A DNA stretch of 64,000 nucleotides from NCBI RefSeq assembly GCF_002214605.1, contig NZ_CP015193.1:848978-912977 (forward strand), read 5' to 3'. Shown here one piece after another: positions 7,414 to 24,258 of this stretch (its first letter is position 1; every line of letters starts with the position of its first letter). Position numbers and translations under genes: made by a program. The stretch is from Thermococcus chitonophagus. Lineage in GTDB: Archaea > Methanobacteriota_B > Thermococci > Thermococcales > Thermococcaceae. Under the pieces are notes generated by a model that saw only the letters and a program-made list of their open reading frames with translations, searched no databases and was not told where the DNA came from.

Positions 7414-8604
7414 ATGGTCTCTTCCTCCACTATTAAATCTTTAATTGAAAAGAAAGGGAAGAACCTTCCAGAGAGCGTTAAACAGGAACTCTATGAGAAG
7501 CTTTTGAAGTACAATGAGAAGTACAAGCTCACAAAGGCAGAAGTTGAAATGATAGTTGAAGAGGTTGTAAAGGAGTACGAGAGAGCCTTAGTCGAACCTG
7601 GTGAGGCTGTTGGTACAGTTGCCGCTCAGTCAATTGGAGAGCCTTCAACTCAGATGACCCTCAACACCTTCCACTATGCAGGTGTTGCCGAAATTAACGT
7701 TACCCTAGGTTTGCCCAGAATCATCGAAATAGTCGATGCGAGGAAGAATCCTTCGACGCCAATGATGACTGTTTATCTTGATGAAGAGCATCGCTATGAG
7801 AGGGCAAAGGCAGAGGAAGTTGCGAGAAGGATTGAGGGAACTACCTTGGAGAATCTTGCGAGAAGCACAACTCTAGATCTTATCAACATGGAATTTATAG
7901 TTGAAATAGATCCCGAGAGACTCGAGAAGAGTGGGCTTACAATGGAGAAAATCTTAAAGAAGCTTCAGGGCTCGTTTAAGAGCGCCGAGTTTGAGGCGGA
8001 GGGTTACACGCTTATCGTTAGGCCAAAGAAAGTTGAGAAGATCTCAGACCTTAGGAGGCTTGCCGAAAAGGTTAAAAAGCACCGTCTTAAGGGTCTCTCG
8101 GGCGTTGGGAAGACCATCGTAAGGAAGGAAGGCGATGAATACGTGATCTATACGGAGGGTTCAAACTTCAAGCAGGTCCTTAAAGTTCCTGGGGTTGATC
8201 CCACAAGGACAAGAACTAATAACATCCATGAGATCGCCGAAGTGCTGGGCATTGAGGCCGCAAGGAATGCCATTATAGAGGAGATAATAAACACGATGCG
8301 CGAGCAGGGTCTTGAGGTTGATATAAGGCATATCATGCTGGTTGCTGATATAATGACTCTTGATGGCATTGTAAGGCCCATCGGTAGGCACGGTGTAGTT
8401 GGTGAAAAGGCAAGCGTCCTTGCAAGGGCGGCCTTCGAGATAACTACGCAACACCTGTTTGAGGCCGCCGAGAGGGGAGAAGTTGACAACCTCAACGGTG
8501 TAATTGAAAACGTCCTAATCGGGCAGCCCGTTCCAGTGGGAACGGGCATAGTTAAGTTGACAATGAAGCTACCACTAAGGCCACAGAAGGAAGAGGAGGT
8601 GTGA
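7414..8604 (+). CDS. rpoA2: DNA-directed RNA polymerase subunit A'' (Rpo1C)
   Basis: C-terminal third of the largest RNA polymerase subunit, supplied as a separate polypeptide in archaea. The ATG at 7414 ([10 protein letters not shown]) is preferred because GAGGTGA at 7402-7408 lies six bases before it; this gives 396 residues, the normal size. The upstream GTG at 7405 sits inside that binding site. The conserved block with [21 protein letters not shown] (near residue 65) includes the trigger-loop/bridge-helix support region. The gene is tightly coupled to rpoA1. Confidence 0.97.
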
Positions 8605-8607
8605 TGA

Positions 8608-8907
8608 ATGGATTTAGCGTTTGAGCTTAGGAAGGCTATGGAAACTGGTAAGGTTATTCTCGGTTCTAATGAAACAATAAGGCTTGCAAAGACTGGTGGC
8701 GCTAAGCTAATAATCGTTGCAAAGAACGCTCCCAAGGAAATCAAGGACGACATCTACTATTATGCGAAGCTCAGCGACATTCCAGTTTATGAGTTTGAGG
8801 GAACGAGTGTTGAGTTGGGAACACTCCTTGGTAAGCCCTTCGTTGTAGCTTCACTTGCAATAGTTGACCCCGGCGAGAGCAAGATACTAGCACTGGCAAA
8901 GAGGTGA
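8608..8907 (+). CDS. rpl30e: ribosomal protein L30e
   Basis: A 99-residue member of the L7Ae/L30e/S12e RNA-binding family. It shows the L30e pattern of [23 protein letters not shown] near the N terminus and a C-terminal [15 protein letters not shown]. It is a component of the large subunit. The position between rpoA2 and nusA is the usual archaeal order. The ATG at 8608 follows GAGGAGGTGTGATGA with a four-base gap after the rpoA2 stop. Confidence 0.95.
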
Positions 8908-8915
8908 GATAGAAA

Positions 8916-9353
8916 ATGCCACTGAAACTCAACACAGACCAGATAAAGTACATAGCGCTTTTCGAGAGCTTTACAGGGGCCACTGTTCTTGATTGTCTTA
9001 TTGATCAGGAGAGGAACAGGCTCATCTACGTCATCAAGAAGGGAGAAATGGGTCTGGCCTTGGGCAAGAGGGGAATGAACGTCAGAAGAATCGAAAACCT
9101 CATTGGAAAGGAGATCGACCTCGTGGAGCACTCGGAGAATCCGGAAGAGTTCATAAAGAACATATACAAGACGATGGGCGTAAAGGTTAAAAGAGTTCAC
9201 ATAACTGAAAAGAGAGACGGCAAGAAGGTTGCTCTCCTTGACGTTAATCCGAGGGACAAGCCGAGGGCAATTGGTAGGGGTGGCCATAACATTAATATTG
9301 TGAAGCAATTAATGGAGAGACACCACGGAATTGAAGATGTGATAATAATTTAA
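8916..9353 (+). CDS. nusA: NusA-like transcription termination/elongation factor
   Basis: Archaeal NusA, 145 residues, made only of two KH RNA-binding domains. It lacks the S1 and N-terminal polymerase-binding domains of bacterial NusA. GxxG-type KH loops are visible as [14 protein letters not shown] (about 48-61) and [13 protein letters not shown] (about 117-129). It sits in the polymerase/ribosomal-protein operon just before rps12, as in most archaea. Confidence 0.95.
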
Positions 9354-10491: not shown

Positions 10492-10848
10492 ATGTTCAAG
10501 TACAAGCAGGTTATCGTTGTTAGGAAAGATTTAAAGCTCAGTAAAGGAAAACTGGCTGTTCAGGTTGCCCACGGGGCCGTTACTGCCGCTTTTAGGGCTT
10601 ACAAAGAAAAGAGAGAATGGTTTGAGAGATGGTTCAACGAGGGACAGAAGAAAGTGGTAGTTAAAGTTGAGAAGCTTGAAGATCTCTTTGAGCTGAAGGA
10701 GAAAGCCGAAAAGCTCGGCCTGCCTACTGCGTTAATTCAAGATGCTGGATTAACAGAAATCCCCCCTGGAACTATAACCGTTCTTGCCGTGGGTCCTGCG
10801 CCTGGTGAATTAGTAGATAAAGTTACAGGTCACCTAAAACTTCTTTGA
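10492..10848 (+). CDS. pth2: peptidyl-tRNA hydrolase, archaeal/eukaryotic type (Pth2)
   Basis: Releases peptides from prematurely dropped peptidyl-tRNA. The protein is 118 residues from the ATG at 10492 ([11 protein letters not shown]). Pth2 hallmarks are [16 protein letters not shown] (catalytic-site region), [14 protein letters not shown] and the final LAVGPAP...VTGHLKLL. The upstream in-frame GTG at 10483 lacks a binding site. The 3' end overlaps the convergent ATPase gene by 26 bases. Confidence 0.95.
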
Positions 10849-12172
10849 AATCCTTTAAATCCCACACGAGACCTTTTCTGCCCCTGTACTCCTTCGCTAT
10901 TATGCCGTAGTACTTTTTCCAGCCCTTGAATCTCGTTAGCTCAGCTTTCCTCTTCAATGAGCTTAAAATTGCCTCGATATCTCTGCTCCTTAACTTCTCC
11001 CACTTAACTTCGACGAATAAAACCTTCTTCTCCTTTTCATTTATTCCGATTATATCAATCTCCTCGTTCTTTTTCCACCATTTTCCGACGTTGGTGATTT
11101 TAAAGGGGAGCATGTCTTTCTTGCCTGCCTCAATCAGGAATTCCTTCCCAACTCTCTCGAAGACGAATCCAAGGTACCTGTTGTACTCCTGCTCAAAGTC
11201 TTCAATGTACCCGAACTCTAGGAGCTGGGTTTTGTTTGGATAGACGAACCTGAACCAGAACGTGAAGTAGAGGTCGCTTATATAGTACCTCCTGTTTCTG
11301 GCTTTTTCAATATCCCCAAGTGGATACTCCTCCTTGACTATGTGTAGGAGCCTCAAGTTTTCCAAATATTGAGATACCGTAGATGGTGGTAGGCCTGTGT
11401 AGTTTACTATCTCTCCGAACTTTGTATTCCCAAATGCTATCGCCTTCAGTATCTTAAAGTACCTTCCAGGTTCTCTCAATTCGCTCCTCAGTAAAAATTC
11501 CGCCTCATCAAACAGCATTTTGTTTGGCTGGAAAACTTCCTCGAGCTTTTCCCCTGATTCCAGTCTAAACTTAACTTCCTCTATATAAGCTGGTATCCCA
11601 TCGGTTATTCCAAATATTCTCACTAGTTCCTCCCATGATTTCTCGGGAAAGAACTCCTTGAGGTGGAAGAACTTTAGGGGTCTGAGTTTTATAGATAACG
11701 TTCTCCTACCGTATAGGGGACTCTTGTACCCTAAAACTTGGCTCTCCATTATACTTATTGATGATCCCGTCAGGACAAGCTTTAATCTCTTTGAGCGATC
11801 GAAGATTTTCTGGAATTTGGAAACTATCCCCTTATTTCCCTTAATCAGGTTTGGAAATTCATCTATTATGACAACATATTCGTTTTCCTCTAGTATCTCG
11901 AAAAGCTCCTCCCAGGTAAGCTCAGCCTTTTCGATTAGCTTGTTTTTGAGACCCCTCGCGACTATTCTCTTAAAGTTATCCAAGTTATCTTTTTCCAGTG
12001 TTTCCTCCGCAAAGAAATAGATATGCCTGACTCCTCTTACGGACTCTTTAACAAGCCTAGTCTTTCCAATCCTCCTCCTTCCATAAATTATTATCAGCTC
12101 CTTCCTTCTGCTTGAGTACGCTCTCCTTAGCAGTTCCAGTTCTTCTCTCCTATCAACAAATAGTTCACACAT
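10823..12172 (-). CDS. archaeal AAA ATPase with C-terminal DUF234 domain
   Basis: A 449-residue member of the archaeal ATPase family expanded in Pyrococcus. The P-loop is GRRRIGKT (about 31-38) and the Walker B is [11 protein letters not shown] (about 98-108). A winged-helix-like segment ([14 protein letters not shown]) follows. The C-terminal DUF234 part has a PD-(D/E)XK-like pattern: EIDIIG, then VEVKW near 390-410. That domain could be a nuclease or a degenerate one. Cellular role is unknown; links to mobile elements and toxin-like functions have been proposed for the family. Only AT-rich sequence precedes the ATG, and a 7-base inverted repeat spans the start region (12162-12196). Confidence 0.88.
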
Positions 12173-12196
12173 GATTATAATAATCTAACGTGAACT
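12162..12196. promoter_or_regulatory. inverted repeat in the ATPase/truD divergent region
   Basis: AGTTCAC (12162-12168) and GTGAACT (12190-12196) form perfect seven-base arms separated by 21 bases. They span the start codon of the minus-strand ATPase and its expected transcription start. It may be an operator; with this arm length chance cannot be excluded. Confidence 0.3.
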
Positions 12197-12246
12197 ATTT
12201 AACGTTTGTGGAAACCTTTTTATTTGTCCTTTAGCTCTTAAGGAGG

Positions 12247-13479
12247 ATGAGGTACCTAAGCGAGACCCCAGGAATAGGAGGAAGGATAAAAGTCTATCCC
12301 GAGGATTTCATAGTCCGGGAAGTCTTACCTTCATCGATTTTTAAGGGTGGAAAGTGCAGGATATACCTTCTGAAGAAGAGAAATTGGGAGACCATGGCAG
12401 CCATAAAGGAAATAGCGAAGAGAATTGGCATTCACTATTCTGAGATCGGCTTCGCGGGAACAAAGGATAGGCATGCTGTAACCTACCAGTACATAAGCAT
12501 CTGCAGGGATGTTGACCTTGCTCAGGTCAGGATTGCGGATATAGAAATAAAGTTCGTTGGATATGGTAGGCCACTTAGGCTTGGCCTTCTCCTGGGCAAC
12601 TGGTTTAAGATAAGGGTTAGGGATGCGGAAAGGCCAGAATTAATTAAAGACATAATTACAGAATTAAAGAATAAAGGGGGCTTTCCCAACTACTTCGGAG
12701 TTCAGAGGTTCGGCGAGAAGAGGAGCGTCAACCATATAGTTGGTAGGTTGTTGCTTGAGGGGAAGTACGAGGAGGCGGCTGAGGTCTTCCTGGGTTATCC
12801 TGGGGAAGGCATGGAGGGAGACGAGGCAAGAAGGAAATTCCTGGAGACGAAAGACGTTGATCTGGCCCTCAAGGAATTCCCCAAGTTCCTGAGGTACGAG
12901 AGGGCAATGCTTTACAAGTACAAGGAGACGAAAAGCTGGAAGAAGGCCTTTCTGGTTCTTCCAAGGCCAATATTGAGGATCTTTATCCATGCATTTCAGG
13001 CTTACCTATTCAACTTATACCTCTCGAGGAGAATCGAAGGAGGGTTGCCGTTAAATGAGGCTCTCCCAGGGGATATAGTCGTTCAGATCAAGCGTGGAAT
13101 ACCCCTCAGAACGAGAACTTACAGGGTGACGGAAACCAATGTAGACTTCGTGAACTCAAAGATAAAGAAGGGAGAAGCGATGGTTTCCGGGCCGATCTTT
13201 GGCTACTCTATGAGAAAAGCTGAAGGCATCCCAGGAAAACTCGAAAAGGAAATCTTGGAAGAGGCAGGAATTAGCCTTGAGGCGTTTAAAAAGCTTCCAA
13301 AACCGCTGAGGGAGCCTGGAGGTAGGAGGGAACTCATAATAAAGCCGAGAAAATTTGCGTATAGGATCGAGGGAAATGACGTCGTGTTCAGGTTCTTCCT
13401 GCCCAAAGGTGTTTACGCGACGAGCGTTCTCAGGGAATTTATGAAAATTAGAGCTCTATCCCCTTTACCTTGTCGCTGA
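12247..13479 (+). CDS. truD: tRNA pseudouridine synthase D
   Basis: Converts uridine 13 of tRNA to pseudouridine. The protein has 410 residues with the catalytic TruD motif [15 protein letters not shown] (about 66-80; the Asp is the nucleophile). The nested TruD insertion domain is present, as is the late motif [17 protein letters not shown]. The ATG at 12247 is the only possible start, because an in-frame stop lies at 12232-12234. The purine-rich AGGAGG directly abuts the ATG. A TATA box (CCTTTTTATT, about 12215-12224) about 25 bases upstream makes a leaderless mRNA likely. The 3' end overlaps the convergent gene at 13448. Confidence 0.95.
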
Positions 13480-14871: not shown

Positions 14872-15348
14872 CTATTTGCCTGCTAAAGCGTCGTAAAAAG
14901 ATACCTCAAGACCTTTGAGGGTCTTAACACCGACTAGAACTTTATATTCTTTTACTGTGCTTTCTCCTCTTAAAACACTCTCGATTTCCTTGGTAAGTTC
15001 CTCAAGGTTATCTCCAAAGAATCCTACTATAAGATCATAGTCTCCGAGAGTCTTGTATACTTCAAATGTTCTTTTGCATTCCATAAGTTTCCTCATAAAT
15101 CTAACTATCTCCTCTTCCTTTGCGGCAGGGTTTAGTTTTATTAAAACGATTGCGTAGGAGTAACCAACTTTATCGAATCTTAGGTACGCAGATATGAAGA
15201 TATATCCTCTCCTTATAAGGTTTGTACGCCTCCATCTTACTGCGGATTTTGACATTCCTAATTTTCTTGCTATCTCCGCGTCGCTTATTCTCCCATTTTT
15301 CTTTAATAATTCAATTATGCACCAATCTTTTTCCGATAACTTTGACAT
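14872..15348 (-). CDS. Lrp/AsnC family transcriptional regulator
   Basis: A 158-residue regulator with an N-terminal winged helix (DAEIARKLGMSKSAVRWRRTNLI, about 23-45) and a C-terminal RAM-like domain (GDYDLIVGFFGDNLEEL). The family senses amino acids or related small molecules and often controls an adjacent gene. It is transcribed divergently from the racemase/DUF917/OPT cluster with only about 150 bases between, so it is the obvious candidate regulator of that cluster. A weak ACCATT/AATGGT inverted pair lies in the intergenic region (15373-15407). Confidence 0.9.
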   Translation of the reverse strand: MSKLSEKDWCIIELLKKNGRISDAEIARKLGMSKSAVRWRRTNLIRRGYIFISAYLRFDKVGYSYAIVLIKLNPAAKEEEIVRFMRKLMECKRTFEVYKTLGDYDLIVGFFGDNLEELTKEIESVLRGESTVKEYKVLVGVKTLKGLEVSFYDALAGK

Positions 15349-15495: not shown

Positions 15496-16197
15496 ATGTC
15501 TAAAATTTGGGCTCAGAAAGCTAATTTGGTGACTAGTGTAATGTACAATATTGGTTTGATTAGGGTTTTAACTTTGGAGGATGAAGATTCCTTAAACGCT
15601 CATGGAAGGTTAATTGAACGGACATTTCCCGAACTTAAGGTGGAGAGTCGATGCATAGAAGACCAGCCATTTGGCATATACGATAAAGAAAGCGAAGAGA
15701 AAGCCAAACCAAAGGTCATTAGGCTGGCAAAAGCTTTTGAAAAGGATGGAAAAGATGCAGTCATAATAAGCTGTGCTGCTGATCCGGCTGTCAAGGAGTT
15801 AAGAAAAGTTCTAAAAATCCCGGTCATTGGAGCAGGATCCTCTGCAGCCCTTCTAGCTTTGGAAGTTGGGGATAGTGTTGGAGTTATAAACTTAACCGAA
15901 GAGACTCCAAAGGCTATCTCCGAAATTCTCGGGAATCACTTAGTGGTCGAAGCCAAGCCCAAGAGAGTTAAAAATACCCTTGATCTCCTAAAAGAAGAAA
16001 GTAAAGAGGAAATTATTAAACTAGCTAAAGAAATGGAAAAAGATGTTGATGTGATAATTCTTGGATGTACTGGTATGTCTACAATTGGAGTTGCCGGCTT
16101 GCTTTCTAAGCGGGTTAATGTTCCTATTGTTGATCCGGTCGTAGCCTCTGGGGCAATGACTCTTGCAATTCTGAAGAATATAGATGCATGGAGGTGA
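15496..16197 (+). CDS. Asp/Glu/hydantoin racemase family protein
   Basis: A 233-residue cofactor-independent racemase of the Asp/Glu/hydantoin superfamily. The two catalytic-type cysteines are Cys93 (IISCAADPAV) and Cys191 (LGCTGMSTIG). The LGCTGMS pattern resembles hydantoin racemase more than glutamate racemase. A likely substrate is an amino acid or 5-substituted hydantoin. The ATG at 15496 is chosen; the frame is open to a TTG at 15475, but that lies at the predicted transcription start. It heads the nine-gene cluster and ends overlapping the binding site of the DUF917 gene. Confidence 0.85.
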   Translation: MSKIWAQKANLVTSVMYNIGLIRVLTLEDEDSLNAHGRLIERTFPELKVESRCIEDQPFGIYDKESEEKAKPKVIRLAKAFEKDGKDAVIISCAADPAVKELRKVLKIPVIGAGSSAALLALEVGDSVGVINLTEETPKAISEILGNHLVVEAKPKRVKNTLDLLKEESKEEIIKLAKEMEKDVDVIILGCTGMSTIGVAGLLSKRVNVPIVDPVVASGAMTLAILKNIDAWR

Positions 16198-16202
16198 TTA
16201 AT

Positions 16203-17288
16203 TTGAGAATAAAAATCAATGAAGAAATGGCTGAATTTGCCGTAATTGGAGGAGCATTTTTTGGTGGAGGGGGTGGAGGAAACATTGAATTAGGTCTCAG
16301 ACATGCCAAACTTGCCTTGGAACTGGGTGATGTAGTGTTAGTAGATATAGATGACTTACCCCAGGATAGTACCATAGTTACCGTATCCCTTGTGGGTGCG
16401 CCCTCGTCCAAGGAGGCATTTGTTACACCATCTCACATGATCAAGGCTTTTGAGTGTATGAAAGATGAGATTGGGGAGATCGCTGGAGTTATAACTTCCG
16501 AAAATGGTGGATACTCCACGATTAATGGATGGATTCAAGCTGCTGTTTTCGAAATTCCTGTGGTCGATGCGCCTGCTGATGGAAGAGCGCATCCTACTGG
16601 AGTTATGGGTTCTTTAGGCTTACACAATCTCCCTGGCTATGTTTCAACCCAAGTGGGTGTTGGAGGTAATCGGGAAAAAGGTAAGTATGTGGAGGTTGTT
16701 GCAAAGGGGAGTGTTTTATCAACATCTAGGATAATTAGGGAAGCAGCAGTTGAGGCAGGTGGCCTTATAGCTGTTGTTAGGAACCCTGTTTCTGTTAAAT
16801 ACGTGAAGGAAAATGCTGCCCTAGGAGCTATTAAAAAGGCAATAGATGTCGGAAAGATAATTCTTCGGTATAAGGAAGACCCTGGGAAAATGGCAGAGGA
16901 ACTGTGTTCAAAACTTGGTGGTAAGGTTGTAGGAGAGGGGAGGGTAGTTAAATATTGGCTCGAAAGTCGGGGTGGATTTGATATAGGGAGGATAATAATT
17001 GCAGATGAGAATAGGCGCGAGGTCGAATTAGTTTTCTGGAATGAGTTCATGAAATTACAAAGCAATGGAATAGAACTTGCTAAGTTCCCAGATCTAATAG
17101 TTTTATTAGATAAGCAAACAGGACTACCACTGACATCTGCAGAAGTTAAAGTTGGTGATCAGGTTATCGTTCTCATAGTTCCAAAGGAAAAGATACCCTT
17201 GGGATCTGGGGTTTTAGATCCTCAGGCTCTTTCTGTCATTGAAAGTGTAATAAACGGGGGTGATGGCTATGCTAAAGCAGGTGATTGA
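16203..17288 (+). CDS. DUF917 family protein (S-methyl-thiohydantoin desulfurase-like)
   Basis: A 361-residue DUF917 protein. This Pfam family has been renamed after S-methyl thiohydantoin desulfurase and is related to hydantoinase/oxoprolinase proteins. Visible family features are a glycine run GGAFFGGGGGG (about 16-26), SENGGYSTINGW, and VVDAPADGRAHPTG (about 120-133), equivalent to the family's DADGxGRAxP block. The TTG at 16203 is preferred because GGAGGTGAT at 16190-16198 precedes it. The ATG at 16188 would overlap the previous gene and hide that site. It probably acts on a ring-containing amide; the substrate is unknown. Confidence 0.83.
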   Translation: MRIKINEEMAEFAVIGGAFFGGGGGGNIELGLRHAKLALELGDVVLVDIDDLPQDSTIVTVSLVGAPSSKEAFVTPSHMIKAFECMKDEIGEIAGVITSENGGYSTINGWIQAAVFEIPVVDAPADGRAHPTGVMGSLGLHNLPGYVSTQVGVGGNREKGKYVEVVAKGSVLSTSRIIREAAVEAGGLIAVVRNPVSVKYVKENAALGAIKKAIDVGKIILRYKEDPGKMAEELCSKLGGKVVGEGRVVKYWLESRGGFDIGRIIIADENRREVELVFWNEFMKLQSNGIELAKFPDLIVLLDKQTGLPLTSAEVKVGDQVIVLIVPKEKIPLGSGVLDPQALSVIESVINGGDGYAKAGD

Positions 17289-18192
17289 GGCTTATGAGCT
17301 TCTGGATAGTGCAAGGGTAGATGGTTATACTGTGGCAGATTTTCTGAAGGGAAGGGGAGTAAAGGAAGTTGAAGTTACAACGATTGAGGGAGAAAAAGGA
17401 TCCACCGACTTTGTTAAAATAGTCATCCCCGGAAAGGACAGCAAAGCTCCTAAATTAGGAATTATTGGGAGACTTGGTGGTATTGGAGCTAGGCCAGAAA
17501 GGATAGGGCTTGTCTCTGATGCAGATGGTGCAATTACTGCAATAGCAGTTGCTTTAAAGTTGGCAGACATGCAAAGCAATGGCGATATTCTCCCTGGGGA
17601 TGTTATAATATCAACGCACATATGCCCAGATGCTCCTACTAAGCCTCATGAACCGGTTCCTTTCATGGACTCCCCCGTTGATATAGCTACTATGAACAAA
17701 TATGAAGTTGACAAGAGAATGGATGCAATACTCTCAATAGACACAACTAAGGGAAATAGGATTATCAATATACGGGGATTCGCAATAACTCCTACGATTA
17801 AGGAAGGCTGGATTTTGAGAGTTAGTGAAGATCTTCTTGATATTATGGAATATGTGACTGGTAGAATGCCCGCTGTGGTTCCAATAACAATGCAGGATAT
17901 AACTCCATATGGAAATGGCATTTATCATATTAATAGCATCGTGCAACCAGCAACTGCAACGGACGCTCCTGTTGTTGGTGTTGCAATTACCGCTGAAGTT
18001 CCTGTTCCTGGATGTGCGACTGGGGCTAGTCACGAGATTGATATAGAGCTAGCTGGCCGGTTCTGTATAGAGGTTGCTAAGGGATTTGGAGCTGGCAAGG
18101 TCAAGTTCTACGATGAAGACGAATTTAGAAGACTGGTGGAATTGTATGGAAGTATGAAGCATTTACAAACTCTAGGGAGGCTTGAAAAGTGA
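17269..18192 (+). CDS. DUF1177 family protein, possible degenerate M42/M20-fold hydrolase
   Basis: A 307-residue protein that I assign to DUF1177 by its sequence and its neighbours (AroM, OPT). The ATG at 17269 follows GGGGGTGA. The order of motifs parallels the M42 aminopeptidase found elsewhere in this window. SDADGAITAIAVALKL (83-98) resembles [26 protein letters not shown] (110-123) matches the [13 protein letters not shown] position. DAILSIDTT (152-160) matches GFAIDVT. GASHEIDIE (252-260) matches [11 protein letters not shown]. Asp84 or Asp86, Asp121, Asp158 and His255 could therefore be metal ligands. The first M42 histidine (AHMD) has no clear counterpart. Function is inferred, not shown. 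Confidence 0.75.
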   Translation: MLKQVIEAYELLDSARVDGYTVADFLKGRGVKEVEVTTIEGEKGSTDFVKIVIPGKDSKAPKLGIIGRLGGIGARPERIGLVSDADGAITAIAVALKLADMQSNGDILPGDVIISTHICPDAPTKPHEPVPFMDSPVDIATMNKYEVDKRMDAILSIDTTKGNRIINIRGFAITPTIKEGWILRVSEDLLDIMEYVTGRMPAVVPITMQDITPYGNGIYHINSIVQPATATDAPVVGVAITAEVPVPGCATGASHEIDIELAGRFCIEVAKGFGAGKVKFYDEDEFRRLVELYGSMKHLQTLGRLEK

Positions 18193-18848
18193 AAGTTGGG
18201 TTTATAACAATTGGCCAAAGCCCCAGAGTTGACGTTGTTCCTGAGATACTTCCCTATATACCTGGGGTTGATGTCATAGAATGCGGAGCTCTTGACGGCT
18301 TGTCTATGGATGAAATTAAAAGGCTCGCTCCCAGGGAAGGTGATTACGTCCTAGTAACGAGGCTCAGAGATGGAAGTGAAGTGAAACTTAGCCGGGACAA
18401 AATTGTGAAGAGATTGCAAGAGTGTATAGACTTCCTTGAGAGCAAGGGTGTTGATGTAATAGGACTACTGTGTACTGGAGAGTTCCCAGAGCTCTCATCA
18501 AAGAGTGCAATGTTGATAGAACCATCTAACCTGCTCATAAAGCTCGTTGAAGCTATTAACCCCAAAATCCTAGGCGTCGTAATTCCAGATAACGCCCAAA
18601 TAGACATGACGAAGGACAAGTGGAGTAGGTGCTGTGATAAGGTAATTGTCGTTAGCTTCTCTCCCTATTCTGGGGATGAAAAAGAACTTCCTAACGTCTT
18701 GGAGCCCCTTAAGGATGCAGATCTGATAGTGCTTGATTGTATAGGATATCCGGCTAGAATTAAGTATATCGTTAAGAGGGCTCTAAATATTCCGGTTTTG
18801 TTGCCGAGGAGTGTTCTTGGAAAAGTAATAGCAGAACTGGGGGAGTGA
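18189..18848 (+). CDS. AroM family protein
   Basis: A 219-residue AroM-type protein; the family has no established reaction. Signature stretches are FITIGQSPRVD (5-15), CGALDGL (32-38), GLLCTGEFP (92-100) and VLDCIGY (181-187). Cys95 and Cys184 are placed much as the paired cysteines of Asp/Glu racemases, and AroM is distantly related to that fold. It may be an isomerase, racemase or C-N/C-C lyase acting on the same compound as the first gene. The GTG start overlaps the TGA of the DUF1177 gene (GTGA), indicating translational coupling. Confidence 0.83.
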   Translation: MKVGFITIGQSPRVDVVPEILPYIPGVDVIECGALDGLSMDEIKRLAPREGDYVLVTRLRDGSEVKLSRDKIVKRLQECIDFLESKGVDVIGLLCTGEFPELSSKSAMLIEPSNLLIKLVEAINPKILGVVIPDNAQIDMTKDKWSRCCDKVIVVSFSPYSGDEKELPNVLEPLKDADLIVLDCIGYPARIKYIVKRALNIPVLLPRSVLGKVIAELGE

Positions 18849-18850
18849 AA

Positions 18851-19801
18851 ATGAACATTTATGATGCATGTGAAGTTGCACTGAAGAAGTGTTTGGGGGT
18901 AAAGGAAGGAGAAATAGTCCTAATAATAGCTGATGAAAACACTAGAAAAATTGGATGGGCACTTTGGGAGAAGGCCAGAGAACTTAAAGCTGAAGCAATT
19001 TATACTGAGATAATTCCAAGGAAAGTGCACGGAGAAGAGCCACCAAAGCCTATTGCTGAAGCAATGAAATTTGCTGATGTTGTAATTGCCCCAACTACGA
19101 AATCCATAACACATACCTTAGCAAAGAAGGAGGCATGCGAAAGGGGAGTTAGAGTTGCAACACTCCCAGGAATAACGGAAGATGTATTCGTTAGGACTCT
19201 GAACGCTGACTATGATGAGATAGTAGAACTAACGAATAAAATCGCTGATATTCTCGACAGAGGGACTCAAGTAAGAATAGTCACAAGGCTTGGGACTGAT
19301 ATCAGCTTTTCGATAGAGGGAAGAAAGGCTAGGAGGAGTACTGGAGTTTACAAGAACCCAGGGGAATGTGGAAACCTACCTGGGGCGGAAGCATATATAG
19401 CTCCTGTCGAGGGGACTGGAAATGGTACTGTTGTTGTGGACGGTTCTATGGCTGGAATAGGCCTACTCAAGAACCCGATAAAGCTGACTTTTGTTGATGG
19501 TTATCTTGAAAAAATCGAAGGAGGTGATGAAGCAAGGAAATTGGAAGAAATATTGGCCCCATATGGAAAAGAAGCAAGAAACCTTGCGGAGTTTGGAGTG
19601 GGAACAAATCCCAACGCAAGGCTTAGTGGCAATATTTTAGAGGATGAGAAAGTCTTTGGAACTGTGCATATAGCTATAGGGAGTAACTATGATTTTGGAG
19701 GGAAAGTAAGGGCTCCTATACATCTTGACGGGATAATAAAGGAGCCTACTGTTTTTGTCGACGGAGAGATGGTGTTTAGGGATGGTAAACTACTCGTATA
19801 G
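18851..19801 (+). CDS. M29-type (leucyl/PepT-like) aminopeptidase
   Basis: A 316-residue protein of the thermophilic metallopeptidase M29 family, shorter than the classical about 400. Residues matching the M29 dinuclear site are all visible: Glu180 (NLPGAEAYIAP), Glu247 (LAEFGVG), His273 (VHIAIGSN), and His291 with Asp293 (PIHLDG). It is therefore probably an active cytosolic aminopeptidase. The ATG at 18851 follows GGGGGAGTGA, and the AroM stop lies within that site. Together with the OPT transporter it suggests import followed by stepwise hydrolysis of a peptide-like compound. Confidence 0.85.
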   Translation: MNIYDACEVALKKCLGVKEGEIVLIIADENTRKIGWALWEKARELKAEAIYTEIIPRKVHGEEPPKPIAEAMKFADVVIAPTTKSITHTLAKKEACERGVRVATLPGITEDVFVRTLNADYDEIVELTNKIADILDRGTQVRIVTRLGTDISFSIEGRKARRSTGVYKNPGECGNLPGAEAYIAPVEGTGNGTVVVDGSMAGIGLLKNPIKLTFVDGYLEKIEGGDEARKLEEILAPYGKEARNLAEFGVGTNPNARLSGNILEDEKVFGTVHIAIGSNYDFGGKVRAPIHLDGIIKEPTVFVDGEMVFRDGKLLV

Positions 19802-19817
19802 TTTGTAGGTGAGTGAA

Positions 19818-21404
19818 ATGGACAACGTTGAGAGAAAGCATCCATCCGCTCTTGAGCCTGGTGTTTTGGTTCTCAACATAGCGATGGCTGTCTTAGGCTC
19901 GATAATAGGTCTTGAGCTAATCACTAGACTTGGAATTACAACAAACACATCAATTATAGGTGCCCTTATAGCAATCCTCCTTGCAAGGATACCTATCAAG
20001 GTACTAAAAGCATTTCTTGACTTAAATAGACAAAATCTCGTTCAGACTGCAATATCTGGAGCAACCTTTGGTGCCGCAAATGCAATATTTCTCCCAATAG
20101 GTGTTACTTGGCTTTTAGGTAGACAAGACCTCTTAGTTCCGATGTGGATTGGTGCGACCCTTGCAGCGATAATCGATATGACAATGATATACTGGCTTTT
20201 TGACACTAGAATCTTTCCAGCAAAGAATCCATGGCCCCCAGGCATAGCTACCGCAGAAACTTTGATAGCTGCAGCTAAAAAAGGAAAAAGAGCAATGCTA
20301 CTTTTATATGGCATGATAGCTGGTGGAATAGTGAGGTACTTAGGAATTCCAGCCGATATAGCTGGAGTTGCTTGGATTGGAAACATATGGGCCCTAACAA
20401 TGTTCGGAATAGGCTTAATTGTTAGAGGTTATTCACCGAAGCTCTTTGGAGTTGACATCAATAAGTACTATGCTCCTCACGGAATAATGATAGGTGCTGG
20501 ACTAGTGGCTTTGATCCAGATAATCCTAATAATATCAAAGAAAGCAAAGTCTATAAAAGAGGGAGAGCTTGATTACCCTCTAACTAGAACTGAAGAAGAC
20601 ATTAAGAAAGCTTTAACAAGAGGATTTGGCCTTTACCTTGTCATAGCCTTGGCTCTTGCGCTACTTGGTGGCCTATATACTGGAATGTCGGCGGGCATGT
20701 TCATTTGGTGGTTCGTATTCGCAGCAATAGCTGCCCTTGTTTCTGAGCTCATAGTTGGTCTATCGGCGATGCACGCTGGATGGTTCCCTGCGTTTGCAAC
20801 AGCCTTGATATTCCTAATACTCGGTATCCTAATGGGATTCCCAGCTCCAGCCTTGGGTCTTTTAGTGGGATTCACTGCTGCAACTGGTCCTGCATTTGCA
20901 GATATGGGATACGACTTGAAGACTGGATGGATAATTAGAGGAGAAGGCAAGGACATAAAATTCGAACTAGAGGGAAGAAAACAACAGTATATAGCGGAGC
21001 TAACTGGTCTTATAATAGCAACTACAATGGTTGCACTCTTTGCAAAGACGTACTTATCTCAGAACTTAGTGCCACCCGTTGACAGGGTCTACGTGGCCAC
21101 AATCAAAGCTGGTGCTAGCCCTGAAATAGCTAAATACCTAATAATGTGGGCAATCCCTGGGGCAATAGTTCAGGCAATTGGTGGACCAGACAGACAATTG
21201 GGTATCCTATTTGCAACGGGTCTTCTTATAAAGTATCCAATAGCGGGTATCACGGTGTTAGTGGCAATAGCAATTAGGCTTCTCGTTACAAAGATGTATA
21301 AAGAAGAGGGACAACAAGCTCTTTACGTCTTAGGTGCAGGTCTTATAGCGGGTTCAACACTCGTGAGCTTCTTCACATCGACACTTAAGATAGGGAAGAA
21401 GTAG
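19818..21404 (+). CDS. OPT family oligopeptide/YSL-type transporter
   Basis: A 528-residue integral membrane protein with about 13-14 hydrophobic segments. It resembles the OPT/YSL family, secondary transporters for oligopeptides or metal-chelate peptides: FLPIGVTWLLGRQD, a cytoplasmic loop near 240-265, and ATGPAFADMGYDLKTGWIIRG. The ATG at 19818 follows TAGGTGA. Being inside the cluster it is the likely importer of the substrate handled by the neighbouring enzymes. A T-rich stretch after the stop (21405-21435) may cause partial termination before the next gene. Confidence 0.83.
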   Translation: MDNVERKHPSALEPGVLVLNIAMAVLGSIIGLELITRLGITTNTSIIGALIAILLARIPIKVLKAFLDLNRQNLVQTAISGATFGAANAIFLPIGVTWLLGRQDLLVPMWIGATLAAIIDMTMIYWLFDTRIFPAKNPWPPGIATAETLIAAAKKGKRAMLLLYGMIAGGIVRYLGIPADIAGVAWIGNIWALTMFGIGLIVRGYSPKLFGVDINKYYAPHGIMIGAGLVALIQIILIISKKAKSIKEGELDYPLTRTEEDIKKALTRGFGLYLVIALALALLGGLYTGMSAGMFIWWFVFAAIAALVSELIVGLSAMHAGWFPAFATALIFLILGILMGFPAPALGLLVGFTAATGPAFADMGYDLKTGWIIRGEGKDIKFELEGRKQQYIAELTGLIIATTMVALFAKTYLSQNLVPPVDRVYVATIKAGASPEIAKYLIMWAIPGAIVQAIGGPDRQLGILFATGLLIKYPIAGITVLVAIAIRLLVTKMYKEEGQQALYVLGAGLIAGSTLVSFFTSTLKIGKK

Positions 21405-21455
21405 TAGCTTTTTCTATTTTCTTTCCCTACTTTCTAAATTTTGGAGGTGTTAAAG

Positions 21456-22514
21456 TTGAAAATGTATGAATTTGAATTAGGGTTAGCGGCGGAAAAATTA
21501 GTTCGCGATATCCTCAATGTTAAAGATGGAGAAGTAGTGGCAATAACTGCGGATACGCTATCAAGTGAAGACGTTGTAAATGCAACTGCTCGAGAAGTTT
21601 TTAAATGTGGGGGGAAGCCTCTCGTACTCTGGATCCCAACCCCTCCGGGAGTTGGAAAAGCCGCGGACCCAGCTCTCCCACAGCGAGCATTGATTGGCAT
21701 GTTAAAGGGTGTTGATATTTGGATAGAGTTTAACCATAACTGGCTGTTGTATTCAACCGTGTTTGATGAAGTACTCCAGGAGAATAAAGACCTTAGATAT
21801 ATCTGCTTAGTTGGCATGAACCCAGAGATTATGGTCAGGACTATTGGAAAGGTAAACATGGTAGCTCTAGCTGAATTTTTAGAGAAGCTCGGGGAGTTAA
21901 CGAGTAGTGCCAGGGAAGTCAGGATAACGACGCCCGCTGGTACAGACGTTGAGTTCAGGAACAAAAAAGGTAGGCCTATAATAGTTCACTCAGGACGCGT
22001 GAATAAGGGAGAGTACGAAATGCTCCCTGGTCAGATAAGCTGGACTCCTAAATTAAAAACGATCTATGGCAAAATTGTTTTTGATGGATCTTTGTATCCC
22101 CCAATAGGTCTTCTAAGGGATCCAGTAACTTTGATCATTGAAAAAGGGAGAATAGTTGATATACAGGGAAAAAGAGAAGCTCAGGAATTTGAAAAATGGC
22201 TAGAGAGTTTTGAGGACGAGAATATGTATCAACTTGCCCATATCTCATATGGGTTTAATCCAGGCGCTAAACTCACCGGAAACATAGTAGAAGATGAAAG
22301 GGTCTGGGGTGCGACTGAGTGGGGCGTTGGCAATATTGGACCCAGATTGGTTCCTGACATCCCAGGTGGCGTTCCGGCGGCTTCTCATTCCGATGGGATA
22401 TGCTTGAGGTCTTCAGTATGGTTAGATGACACTGCAATTATGAGCGAAGGGGAAGTTGTGAGTCCTCAATATCTTGTTGAGCTTGCAAATAAAGCCAGAA
22501 AGCTTGAAATGTGA
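21456..22514 (+). CDS. M29/NicX-like protein with 2-His-1-Asp site
   Basis: A 352-residue homologue of the previous M29-type protein, but with altered ligands. The position of Glu180 is Gln193 here (MLPGQISWTP). Glu247 is replaced by His262 (LAHISYGFNPGA). The middle His is lost (WGATEWGVGN). His311 and Asp313 remain (SHSDG). This H...H-x-D set matches NicX, the Fe(II) 2,5-dihydroxypyridine 5,6-dioxygenase, as I recall its sequence (SHIGWGLQP...CHLD). It may thus be a mononuclear metalloenzyme cleaving a ring rather than a peptidase. TTG at 21456, six bases after GGAGGTG, is the probable start; ATG at 21462 is the alternative. Confidence 0.8.
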   Translation: MKMYEFELGLAAEKLVRDILNVKDGEVVAITADTLSSEDVVNATAREVFKCGGKPLVLWIPTPPGVGKAADPALPQRALIGMLKGVDIWIEFNHNWLLYSTVFDEVLQENKDLRYICLVGMNPEIMVRTIGKVNMVALAEFLEKLGELTSSAREVRITTPAGTDVEFRNKKGRPIIVHSGRVNKGEYEMLPGQISWTPKLKTIYGKIVFDGSLYPPIGLLRDPVTLIIEKGRIVDIQGKREAQEFEKWLESFEDENMYQLAHISYGFNPGAKLTGNIVEDERVWGATEWGVGNIGPRLVPDIPGGVPAASHSDGICLRSSVWLDDTAIMSEGEVVSPQYLVELANKARKLEM

Positions 22515-22528
22515 GTGGGGGTAGCAAA

Positions 22529-23047
22529 GTGGAGATAATGACCATAATTAAAGGTAGGAGAGCAGTTAGAAAATTTGATGATAAACAAATTCCCCTACAC
22601 GATCTCAAGGAAATTTTAGAGGCAGGGATATGGGCCCCGAGTGCCAGTAACATCCAACCCTGGGAATTTATCCTTGTAACAGAAAAACAGAAAATTGAAA
22701 AAATTAAATTAGTGTCCCCTGGGCTCTTTGGGAATCCAGCTGCTTTAGTAATATTATGTATCAACAAAGAAAGGGCGAAAAAAGGTGGAAGGTTGGGTGA
22801 GAAGTATGCTCTCATGGACATAGCAATGGCCGCTCAGAATATGATGCTGGTTGCGTACTCTAAGGGCATTGGTTCTTGTCCAGTTGTTTCTTTTAATAGA
22901 GTTGCAGTTAAGGAAATATTATCAATTCCAGAACATGTAGATCCAGTTCTGATACTCACCCTTGGATATCCAAAATTCTGGCCGAAGCCTCCAAAAAGAC
23001 GAAAAGAGGTGATGCATCTTGAAGAATACGGAAACGTTATTGAATGA
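22529..23047 (+). CDS. nitroreductase family flavoprotein
   Basis: A 172-residue FMN-dependent nitroreductase-like protein. The N terminus IIKGRRAVRKFDDKQIP and the block AGIWAPSASNIQPWEFILV (about 40-58) bind FMN in this family. The C-terminal YSKGIGSCPVVSF and LTLGYP are also typical. GTG at 22529 is preferred, six bases after GGGGGTA; the frame opens at 22511. Such enzymes reduce nitro groups, quinones, or C=C and C=N bonds using NAD(P)H. Its substrate here is unknown, but its place at the end of the cluster suggests a reductive step on an unsaturated or heterocyclic intermediate. Confidence 0.88.
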   Translation: MEIMTIIKGRRAVRKFDDKQIPLHDLKEILEAGIWAPSASNIQPWEFILVTEKQKIEKIKLVSPGLFGNPAALVILCINKERAKKGGRLGEKYALMDIAMAAQNMMLVAYSKGIGSCPVVSFNRVAVKEILSIPEHVDPVLILTLGYPKFWPKPPKRRKEVMHLEEYGNVIE

Positions 23048-23309
23048 TGACCATTTTAAATTAATAGTCTTTCTTATAACAAGTGCTCGAGGACTGTTAG
23101 GTGAACCATGTCTATATGGACCACTAAGATTGCTTGATGCTGCAATTAAAACTATAGAAATAATGGAAAAATATGGCAAAGTTCCCCCAGAGATTCTTGA
23201 AATAAAGCGAGAAATAGAGAACAAGAAAAATTTAGTAATGTACGATGAAGAGGAGTTTATGGCTTTTCTTGATGAATTATCCAGGAAAATAGCCAAGCTA
23301 ATTAAATAA
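23019..23309 (+). CDS. small conserved protein (DUF6092-like)
   Basis: A 96-residue helical protein. The segment FLITSARGLLGEPCLYGPLRLLDAA resembles DUF6092, which I recall as a small family often next to redox enzymes; this assignment is tentative. The TTG start at 23019 follows AGAGGTGATG and lies inside the end of the nitroreductase gene (29-base overlap), so the two are translationally coupled. It may be an accessory subunit of the nitroreductase. It is the last gene before the CRISPR array. Confidence 0.7.
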   Translation: MKNTETLLNDDHFKLIVFLITSARGLLGEPCLYGPLRLLDAAIKTIEIMEKYGKVPPEILEIKREIENKKNLVMYDEEEFMAFLDELSRKIAKLIK

Positions 23310-23362: not shown

Positions 23363-24258
23363 CTTTCAATTCTCTTTTAGTCTTATTGGAACACTACCAT
23401 CCTTCAGTGTGAAGACTGAACCAAACGTCTTTCAATTCTCTTTTAGTCTTATTGGAACAACTGGTATGGCCATCTGTTCTACTATCTCACCCGTCCTTTC
23501 AATTCTCTTCTAGTCTTATTGGAACGTGACCGAGATCTACCAGCGCTACACCGGGGTGTGCTCTTTCAATTCTCTTCTAGTCTTATTGGAACCTCCACCA
23601 TAGTGACACCCCCAAAGAAAAGAGAAATCCTTTCAATTCTCTTCTAGTCTTATTGGAACGCGATCAGCTCCTCGACTCTTTCCGCGTCCTCAACGGATGC
23701 CTTTCAATTCTCTTCTAGTCTTATTGGAACACAATCAGTATAGTTCCTCCAATCGAAAATCTAACTGCTTTCAATTCTCTTCTAGTCTTATTGGAACAGC
23801 CTTCCAATCAGCAGAATCAATCGTTGAACCCTGCTTTCAATTCTCTTCTAGTCTTATTGGAACGAGAGTGGCAAGGTACTGAGGTTCAAGGGCATCTTCC
23901 TTTCAATTCTCTTCTAGTCTTATTGGAACAACCCCGGCCCCAACCCCAACAACAACCACAAGCTCCTTTCAATTCTCTTCTAGTCTTATTGGAACATTAA
24001 GTGTTAGACCTGTAGTTGAGACTTTCACATACTTTCAATTCTCTTCTAGTCTTATTGGAACCCGCAATTATTGCCAAGACCGCTATCAACCCAAACCTTT
24101 CAATTCTCTTCTAGTCTTATTGGAACACCAACAGGCCAACGTGGAGTACGGGGCATTGATAAACTTTCAATTCTCTTCTAGTCTTATTGGAACAATAAAG
24201 TGAATTAGCTCCACGTCAACACGTCAGCCTTTCAATTCTCTTCTAGTCTTATTGGAAC
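23363..24258 (-). CRISPR. CRISPR array, 14 repeats and 13 spacers
   Basis: Fourteen 30-base repeats, crRNA-sense GTTCCAATAAGAC...GAATTGAAAG, with starts at 23363, 23429, 23496, 23563, 23630, 23701, 23768, 23834, 23900, 23966, 24032, 24097, 24164 and 24229. Spacers are 35-37 bases, except one of 41 (23660-23700). The repeat ends in ATTGAAAG, the 8-base 5' handle of Pyrococcus crRNAs made by Cas6, so transcription is on the minus strand from the high-coordinate end. The two repeats furthest from the leader (23363, 23429) share one substitution (TTTTAG for TTCTAG in plus sense), as expected for the old end. No cas gene lies in the window. Confidence 0.99.

Follow-up and report, generated by a model that had tools for sequence, protein, structure and literature searches.

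A composite Thermococcus chitonophagus operon with a predicted cyclodipeptide oxidase pair and a possible role in cyclic dipeptide breakdown

Organization of the locus

The window analysed, a stretch of 64,000 nucleotides from Thermococcus chitonophagus, contains nine plus-strand open reading frames and a divergent Lrp-type regulator gene, all verified in the sequence (Table 1). Neighbouring plus-strand genes overlap by 4–29 bp or are separated by gaps of 7 bp and, at the widest, 36 bp, a spacing consistent with one transcription unit. This confirms the close packing and the divergent regulator described in the original prediction. Its family names also hold: PF01177, PF06032/PF20906, PF06675, PF07302, PF02073, PF03169, PF00881 and PF19585 all score above their curated Pfam cut-offs (for example, 25 bits for PF06675, 23.8 for PF07302 and 28.7 for PF19585), and the NicX-like protein is recognized by sequence (PDB entry 7cn3), profile and predicted fold.

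Rac probably starts at the ATG at 15541 rather than at 15496, since from there it opens with an MxxIGLIRVL motif, as does its homologue in the Bacillota locus L216; homologues of the DUF1177 protein begin at the position equivalent to the ATG at 17269. The divergent placement of the Lrp gene recurs in loci L026, L027, L030, L038 and L043. When the intergenic regions of six loci were compared, they aligned poorly, and no clear palindrome that might serve as an Lrp operator was seen.

Table 1. Genes of the operon and its divergent regulator, with positions in the window.
Product	Position	Strand	Remarks
Lrp/AsnC-type regulator	14872..15348	-	PF13412/PF13404 above cut-off, PF01037 just below; divergent from operon
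Rac, Asp/Glu/hydantoin racemase superfamily	15541..16197	+	218 aa; PF01177, 95.3 bits
DUF917 / S-Me-THD-like protein	16188..17288	+	PF06032 and PF20906
DUF1177 protein, zinc-exopeptidase (M17/M28-like) predicted fold	17269..18192	+	PF06675, 459.8 bits
AroM, second racemase-superfamily protein	18189..18848	+	PF07302, 246.5 bits
M29-like metallopeptidase, short form	18845..19801	+	PF02073, 46.2 bits
OPT-family oligopeptide transporter	19809..21404	+	PF03169, 95.7 bits
NicX-like/M29-like paralogue	21441..22514	+	PDB 7cn3, E 6.7e-12; no Pfam match
CDOA, putative cyclodipeptide oxidase subunit, nitroreductase fold	22511..23047	+	PF00881; best PDB match AlbA 8uc3_A
CDOB, putative cyclodipeptide oxidase small subunit (DUF6092)	23019..23309	+	PF19585, 96.4 bits

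A predicted cyclodipeptide oxidase pair at the end of the operon

The final two genes, taken in the original prediction for a flavoreductase and a small helper, are instead identified from their sequences as a cyclodipeptide oxidase (CDO) pair of the AlbA/AlbB type. Characterized CDOs form filaments and catalyse the alpha,beta-dehydrogenation of cyclic dipeptides. The closest solved structures are AlbA for CDOA (8uc3_A, E 1.6e-30) and AlbB for CDOB (8uc3_D, E 2.4e-8), the subunits of albonoursin synthase from Streptomyces noursei, likewise a two-gene oxidase. Andreas et al. 2024 (PMC11055893) name as key residues Arg24, Arg28, Ser54 and Cys135-Pro-Val of AlbA and Glu33, Pro34, Tyr37 and Arg41 of AlbB. 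These align with R16, R20, S46 and C123-P-V of CDOA and with E29, P30, Y33 and R37 of CDOB; the catalytic and FMN-binding residues, including the FMN-phosphate arginines, are therefore retained, and mostly so across family members. These residues and the pairing of the genes argue against an ordinary nitroreductase with an unrelated helper.

The pair differs from AlbA/AlbB in that CDOA aligns an Asp with the covalent-flavin Cys115 of AlbA, in the catabolic appearance of the operon and in its presumably anaerobic host. According to PMC11055893, covalent flavin attachment through Cys115 is confined to CDOs associated with a cyclodipeptide synthase (CDPS) and the cysteine is generally missing from non-CDPS CDOAs; it is thus no hallmark of the CDO family at large. 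The identity of the pair moves the leading substrate from a hydantoin towards a 2,5-diketopiperazine.

The DUF1177 protein and the two M29-like proteins

A sequence search of the PDB with the DUF1177 protein gave no meaningful match, and structure prediction was therefore used. The AlphaFold2 model (pLDDT 89.7) matches M17/M28 aminopeptidases in Foldseek (E about 1e-8, probability 1.00, TM about 0.5), which suggests a zinc-exopeptidase fold, a new assignment for this family. The protein is 58–85% identical across the aligned phyla, with Asp87, His120, His130, Asp161, His223 and Glu271 invariant in the alignment. A single-sequence query of viral contigs gave no match.

The two M29-like genes split into an EEHHD class with a dinuclear metal site and a QHxHD, NicX-like class, which is also a new assignment. 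In the short M29-like protein the five-ligand signature is complete (Glu182, Glu249, His275, His293 and Asp295), the residues Glu, Glu, His, His and Asp being the metal ligands of M29 enzymes; the pattern is present in 39 of 39 full-length relatives. The protein thus has the full dinuclear signature of the M29 aminopeptidases PepS and AmpT, but with 318 residues against their approximately 410 it is shorter in its N-terminal part.

The NicX-like protein matches a profile of NicX, the 2,5-dihydroxypyridine 5,6-dioxygenase of Pseudomonas putida, with an E value of 1e-27, and its model (pLDDT 93.8) superimposes on NicX with a TM score of 0.77. In NicX the metal ligands are His265, Ser302, His318 and Asp320, and His105 is a substrate residue. 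The fold and the His-His-Asp triad are shared (His267, His316 and Asp318), but Arg302 takes the place of the Ser302 ligand and Tyr104 that of His105; together with Gln198, the triad forms the QHxHD signature of a site predicted to be of the mononuclear type. An O2-dependent reaction of the NicX type is unlikely in T. chitonophagus.

Racemase-fold proteins, DUF917 and the hydantoin alternative

Rac and AroM both score above the cut-offs for their racemase-superfamily families (PF01177 and PF07302) and both contain a conserved pair of catalytic-type cysteines: Cys80 and Cys178 (220-residue form numbering) in fractions of 0.97 and 1.00 of 40 Rac homologues, Cys95 and Cys184 in 1.00 and 0.98 of 63 AroM homologues. 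The DUF917 gene is present in a single copy in the genome. Its product belongs, over nearly its whole length, to the superfamily of the thiohydantoin and S-methyl thiohydantoin desulfurases (NF058529 and NF058532), but falls about 140–170 bits short of both NCBIfam equivalog cut-offs (300.7 against 440 and 280.4 against 450 bits). The link of DUF917 to thiohydantoin desulfuration made in the original prediction is thus not upheld, and true desulfuration is set aside as the main reading.

Catabolism of a hydantoin or thiohydantoin has to be considered nonetheless. An imported five-membered cyclic ureide would be racemized by Rac and AroM, DUF917 would act on the ring and the metallohydrolases would remove the carbamoyl group. 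The membership of Rac in the Asp/Glu/hydantoin racemase family, the kinship of DUF917 with the desulfurases and the HyuA-like hydantoinase genes that adjoin DUF917 in the CDO-DUF1177 loci L207 and L146 all fit this scheme; two racemase-fold genes plus DUF917 also suit hydantoin chemistry, which counts against a diketopiperazine substrate. However, DUF917 is under both desulfurase cut-offs, the genome has no match to the HyuA hydantoinase (PF05378) and no hydantoinase or carbamoylase above cut-off (TIGR01879 was found only below it), CDO chemistry is proven on 2,5-diketopiperazines, and importers of the OPT and Dpp/Opp types point to a peptide. We consider a hydantoin substrate rather unlikely. 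A related proposal, of hydantoin- or allantoin-like substrates for CDO-like proteins outside CDPS clusters, is made by the authors of PMC11055893.

A widespread core and an optional module

The first seven genes, Rac-DUF917-DUF1177-AroM-M29-OPT-NicX, make up a conserved module. Five further loci of Thermococcaceae (L026, L028, L030, L031 and L038) keep its order unbroken, more than expected by chance; the module is partial in L027 and L043. The OPT protein is 82–89% identical to the copies in relatives' modules. A DUF1177-AroM core occurs over many phyla, both bacterial and archaeal, alongside OPT or an ABC peptide importer of the Dpp/Opp type. In the 38 DUF1177 loci with full flanks, which come from many phyla, same-strand neighbours within 8 kb include AroM (28 loci), DUF917 (13), M29 (13), racemase (12) and OPT (10). 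The conserved co-occurrence in other genomes, on which the original prediction had staked its claim, is therefore found. OPT and ABC importers occur together in one of these 38 loci; their mutual exclusion is a mere tendency (Fisher p = 0.12).

CDO is present in one of 50 distant DUF1177 genomes and in six of the 12 DUF1177 genomes of the host's phylum, where the co-occurrence of DUF1177 and CDOB in six genomes exceeds chance (Fisher p = 4e-4, uncorrected for phylogeny). Since the core is found without CDO in 49 of the 50 distant genomes and in a genome of the same genus (G026, locus L038), CDO does not define the substrate of the core. The operon is composite: its core is widespread and its CDO module optional.

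Ten CDO loci are readable in Thermococcaceae. Each has genes of the racemase family, DUF917 and a peptide importer within about 11 kb, and nine have a NicX-like gene too. Importers are of two kinds, OPT or ABC systems whose peptide-binding protein is of the SBP_bac_5 type, which favours a peptide-like substrate. Similar sets exist further afield, in Bacillota (L216: NicX-OPT-Rac-DUF917-DUF1177-AroM-CDOA-CDOB plus M20) and Anaerolineae (L138/L082: CDO-NicX-DUF917-DUF1177-AroM plus ABC importers), and M20 aminoacylase-type genes are recurrent neighbours. Outside Thermococcaceae, NicX is only weakly enriched at CDO loci (9/45) relative to DUF1177 loci as a whole (9/80). Some CDO loci of Thermoproteota have none of the partner genes; in L187, CDO adjoins an aldehyde ferredoxin oxidoreductase gene.

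The absence of CDO from most genomes with the core suits another explanation, in which the substrates are unusual linear peptides (D-residue-containing, iso-, cross-linked or heat-damaged), the transporter and metallopeptidases are central, the racemases convert D to L residues and CDO, as a side module, deals with ring-closed by-products. Peptide importers, the full metal site of the M29-like protein, the predicted exopeptidase fold of DUF1177 and the M20 neighbours are in line with it. It leaves DUF917 and the NicX-like protein unexplained, though both recur with CDO and racemases, and we judge it improbable.

The novelty claimed in the original prediction is partly anticipated. PMC11055893 reports non-CDPS CDO clusters in which hydantoin racemase, DUF917, AroM and OPT are enriched, and notes them in Thermococcus; CDOA/CDOB, transporters of the OPT or ABC peptide type and peptidases are common to those clusters and the present operon. 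The accessible part of that text does not name DUF1177, and it gives no account of the paired M29-like and NicX-like genes, of two modules that can occur separately, of the core's wide occurrence without CDO or of a catabolic scheme.

A possible pathway for cyclic dipeptides

Import and dismantling of a ring-containing, peptide-like nitrogen compound, much as originally predicted, is still the best reading, with diketopiperazines replacing hydantoins as leading substrate. We tentatively propose, with a probability of about 0.45, that the Lrp-controlled operon imports and dismantles small cyclic peptides or close cyclic amides, with 2,5-diketopiperazines the likeliest. Cyclic dipeptides occur commonly and withstand ordinary peptidases, hydantoin-hydrolysing strains can also cleave them, and knowledge of their degradation is scant (PMC3852281).

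The OPT protein would take up the cyclic dipeptide, and Rac and AroM would epimerize the acidic C-alpha, making D-containing rings usable. CDOA/CDOB, with non-covalent FMN and an electron acceptor other than O2, would then dehydrogenate the C-alpha/C-beta bond. The oxidized ring is formally a tautomer of 2,5-dihydroxypyrazine and so resembles the NicX substrate 2,5-dihydroxypyridine; it would be opened by the NicX-like protein, the DUF917 protein or both, the former by hydrolysis, given that the host is presumably an anaerobe. The DUF1177 and M29-like hydrolases would finally cut the linear N-acyl or dehydro-dipeptide. The resulting amino acids, 2-oxo acids and ammonia would feed a peptide-fermenting hyperthermophile.

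AlbAB is itself biosynthetic, and PMC11055893 lists as options both a biosynthetic role, leading to a modified cyclic peptide or a hydantoin metabolite, and a purine/allantoin pathway. Here the transporters are importers rather than exporters, there are several hydrolases and CDO is missing from most core loci, making either role very improbable. The genome gave no match to cyclodipeptide synthase (PF16715), but neither did the control genomes, so that this speaks at most weakly against biosynthesis.

If cyclic dipeptides are indeed the substrates, the operon would show how an anaerobic archaeon can break them down. DUF1177 and AroM would then gain a first role, and the cyclodipeptide oxidases found outside biosynthetic clusters a catabolic one; the question is tractable with about nine heat-stable proteins. 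More speculatively, and with considerable doubt, it may exemplify a widespread anaerobic pathway, not yet described, of import, epimerization, oxidation, ring opening and hydrolysis, in which a NicX-fold protein is a non-oxygenase ring-opening hydrolase and DUF1177, AroM and the non-CDPS CDOs acquire first functions. Thermal formation may be an ecological source of cyclic dipeptides; their formation has been reported in water at pH 11, not under hydrothermal conditions. In relatives that lack CDO, the same scheme would operate without the dehydrogenation step.

Organization of the gene cluster

The nine plus-strand genes of the original prediction and its divergent Lrp-type regulator were confirmed, with ATG 15541 a better placement for the start of the first gene, Rac, than 15496. 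The genes overlap by 4–29 bp or are separated by gaps of 7 and 36 bp, making it likely that they form a single transcription unit. Eight of the nine proteins match Pfam-type families above curated cut-offs; the ninth, the NicX-like protein, is without a Pfam family and matches NicX by sequence and predicted fold (TM 0.77). The host genome is complete (1.96 Mb, a single contig) and the host is presumably anaerobic.

Positions of the cluster, its neighbours and related features in loci of other genomes
Feature	Sequence	Positions	Remark
Lrp/AsnC-type gene	window	14872-15348	divergent from the nine-gene cluster
Nine-gene cluster	window	15541-23309	plus strand
CRISPR array	window	23363-24258	directly downstream of CDOB
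Sodium:solute symporter and M20 aminoacylase-type gene	L038 (same-genus genome)	1640-4289	adjoin module A without CDO
M20-AroM-DUF1177	L039	7283-10302	reduced unit; other module genes absent
HyuA-like hydantoinase/oxoprolinase gene	L207	12577-14142	adjoins DUF917 in a CDO-DUF1177 cluster
HyuA-like hydantoinase/oxoprolinase gene	L146	4731-6269	adjoins DUF917 in a CDO-DUF1177 cluster
FrhB-like and aldehyde ferredoxin oxidoreductase genes	L187 (Thermoproteota)	7634-9004 and 10525-12369	flank CDOA-CDOB; no partner genes

The cyclodipeptide oxidase pair

Judged by sequence, CDOA and CDOB, which close the cluster, encode a cyclodipeptide oxidase (CDO) pair that was overlooked when they were taken for a flavoreductase and a small helper. 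The best solved matches are AlbA for CDOA (8uc3_A, E 1.6e-30) and AlbB for CDOB (E 2.4e-8); CDOB also belongs to PF19585, the family by which PMC11055893 defines CDOB. The residues named there as catalytic or FMN-binding are kept: Glu33, Pro34, Tyr37 and Arg41 of AlbB correspond to E29, P30, Y33 and R37 of CDOB, and Arg24, Arg28, Ser54 and Cys135-Pro-Val of AlbA to R16, R20, S46 and C123-P-V of CDOA (conservation was scored over 34–36 homologs). The covalent-flavin Cys115 of AlbA is replaced by Asp, as expected of CDOs outside synthase clusters. The neighbourhood of CDOA-CDOB in L187 gives a hint that ferredoxin-type partners may take electrons from anaerobic CDOs.

Modular composition and distribution

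Thermococcaceae loci show two arrangements. Module A consists of Lrp followed by Rac-DUF917-DUF1177-AroM-M29-OPT-NicX; in module B, Rac-DUF917-Rac-NicX follows an ABC importer whose binding protein is of the SBP_bac_5 family, and both CDOA-CDOB and an Lrp gene adjoin it. The window contains module A with CDOA-CDOB placed directly after NicX. In two other loci (L026 and L031) M20 and a racemase gene lie between module A and the CDO. In all ten readable Thermococcaceae CDO loci, racemase, DUF917 and peptide-importer genes are at most about 11 kb away, and nine of the ten contain a NicX-like gene. Among 115 sampled genomes of the phylum, DUF1177 was present in 12, CDOB in 13 and both in six (Fisher p = 4e-4, uncorrected for relatedness).

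A DUF1177 profile search, from which 80 loci of many bacterial and archaeal phyla were kept, found AroM in 50, M29 in 26, DUF917 in 24, OPT in 21 and components of Dpp/Opp-type ABC importers in 20. CDOB occurred in only 1 of 50 genomes from this search; the CDO is therefore an accessory to a widespread core. A reverse survey, which was seeded with CDOB and covered samples from three further phyla (45 loci read), found DUF917 in 22, racemase in 12, NicX-like and M29-like genes in nine each, DUF1177 in five and AroM in four. A Bacillota locus (L216) has almost the gene set of the window, NicX-OPT-Rac-DUF917-DUF1177-AroM-CDOA-CDOB plus M20; no partner genes were seen in some ten CDO loci of Thermoproteota, L187 among them, of which several lie on short contigs.

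CDO clusters without a synthase, Thermococcus included, are described in PMC11055893 as enriched in hydantoin racemase, DUF917, AroM and OPT, their function being left open there. The additions made here are an entire operon from a complete genome, its modular make-up and the CDO-less core across phyla, as well as a predicted DUF1177 fold, two putative classes of metal site and a catabolic scheme that can be put to the test.

Candidate enzymes and proposed function

At five aligned positions, the M29-like and NicX-like proteins fall into two classes: EEHHD (39 sequences), the pattern of dinuclear M29 peptidases, and QHxHD (all remaining sequences except fragments), that of mononuclear NicX. 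Because the Ser302 ligand and His105 of NicX are missing, the window's NicX-like protein resembles NicX in fold and triad and is at most a candidate dihydroxypyridine dioxygenase. The DUF1177 model (pLDDT 89.7) matches M17/M28 zinc aminopeptidases by predicted fold; homologs are 58–85% identical to the window's copy (52-sequence alignment), and the literature searched contained no paper describing its function. Two cysteines are conserved in Rac and likewise in AroM (homolog alignments); two-base racemases require such paired cysteines.

The gene set is best read as importing and breaking down cyclic dipeptides or similar cyclic amides. In this reading, peptide importers would take up the cyclic dipeptide, Rac and AroM would be two epimerase-type proteins, the CDO would be the oxidase (characterised relatives act on 2,5-diketopiperazines), DUF917 and the NicX-like protein would be two ring-acting candidates, and two metallohydrolases would serve in the breakdown route. 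From chemical reasoning, a two-electron-oxidised diketopiperazine would be a tautomer of a 2,5-dihydroxypyrazine, similar to the NicX substrate. Common peptidases fail on cyclic dipeptides, which hydantoin-hydrolysing bacteria can cleave (PMC3852281). Hydantoin catabolism, as originally predicted and in part proposed in PMC11055893, stays alive with less support here: the HyuA-like neighbours in L207 and L146 support a hydantoin-type role of DUF917 in other organisms, but the window's DUF917 falls under both desulfurase cut-offs, and the genome searched contains no HyuA and no hydantoinase or carbamoylase match above cut-off.

The CRISPR array next to the cluster consists of 14 copies of the 30-nt repeat CTTTCAATTCTCTTYTAGTCTTATTGGAAC, at a spacing of 65–71 nt.
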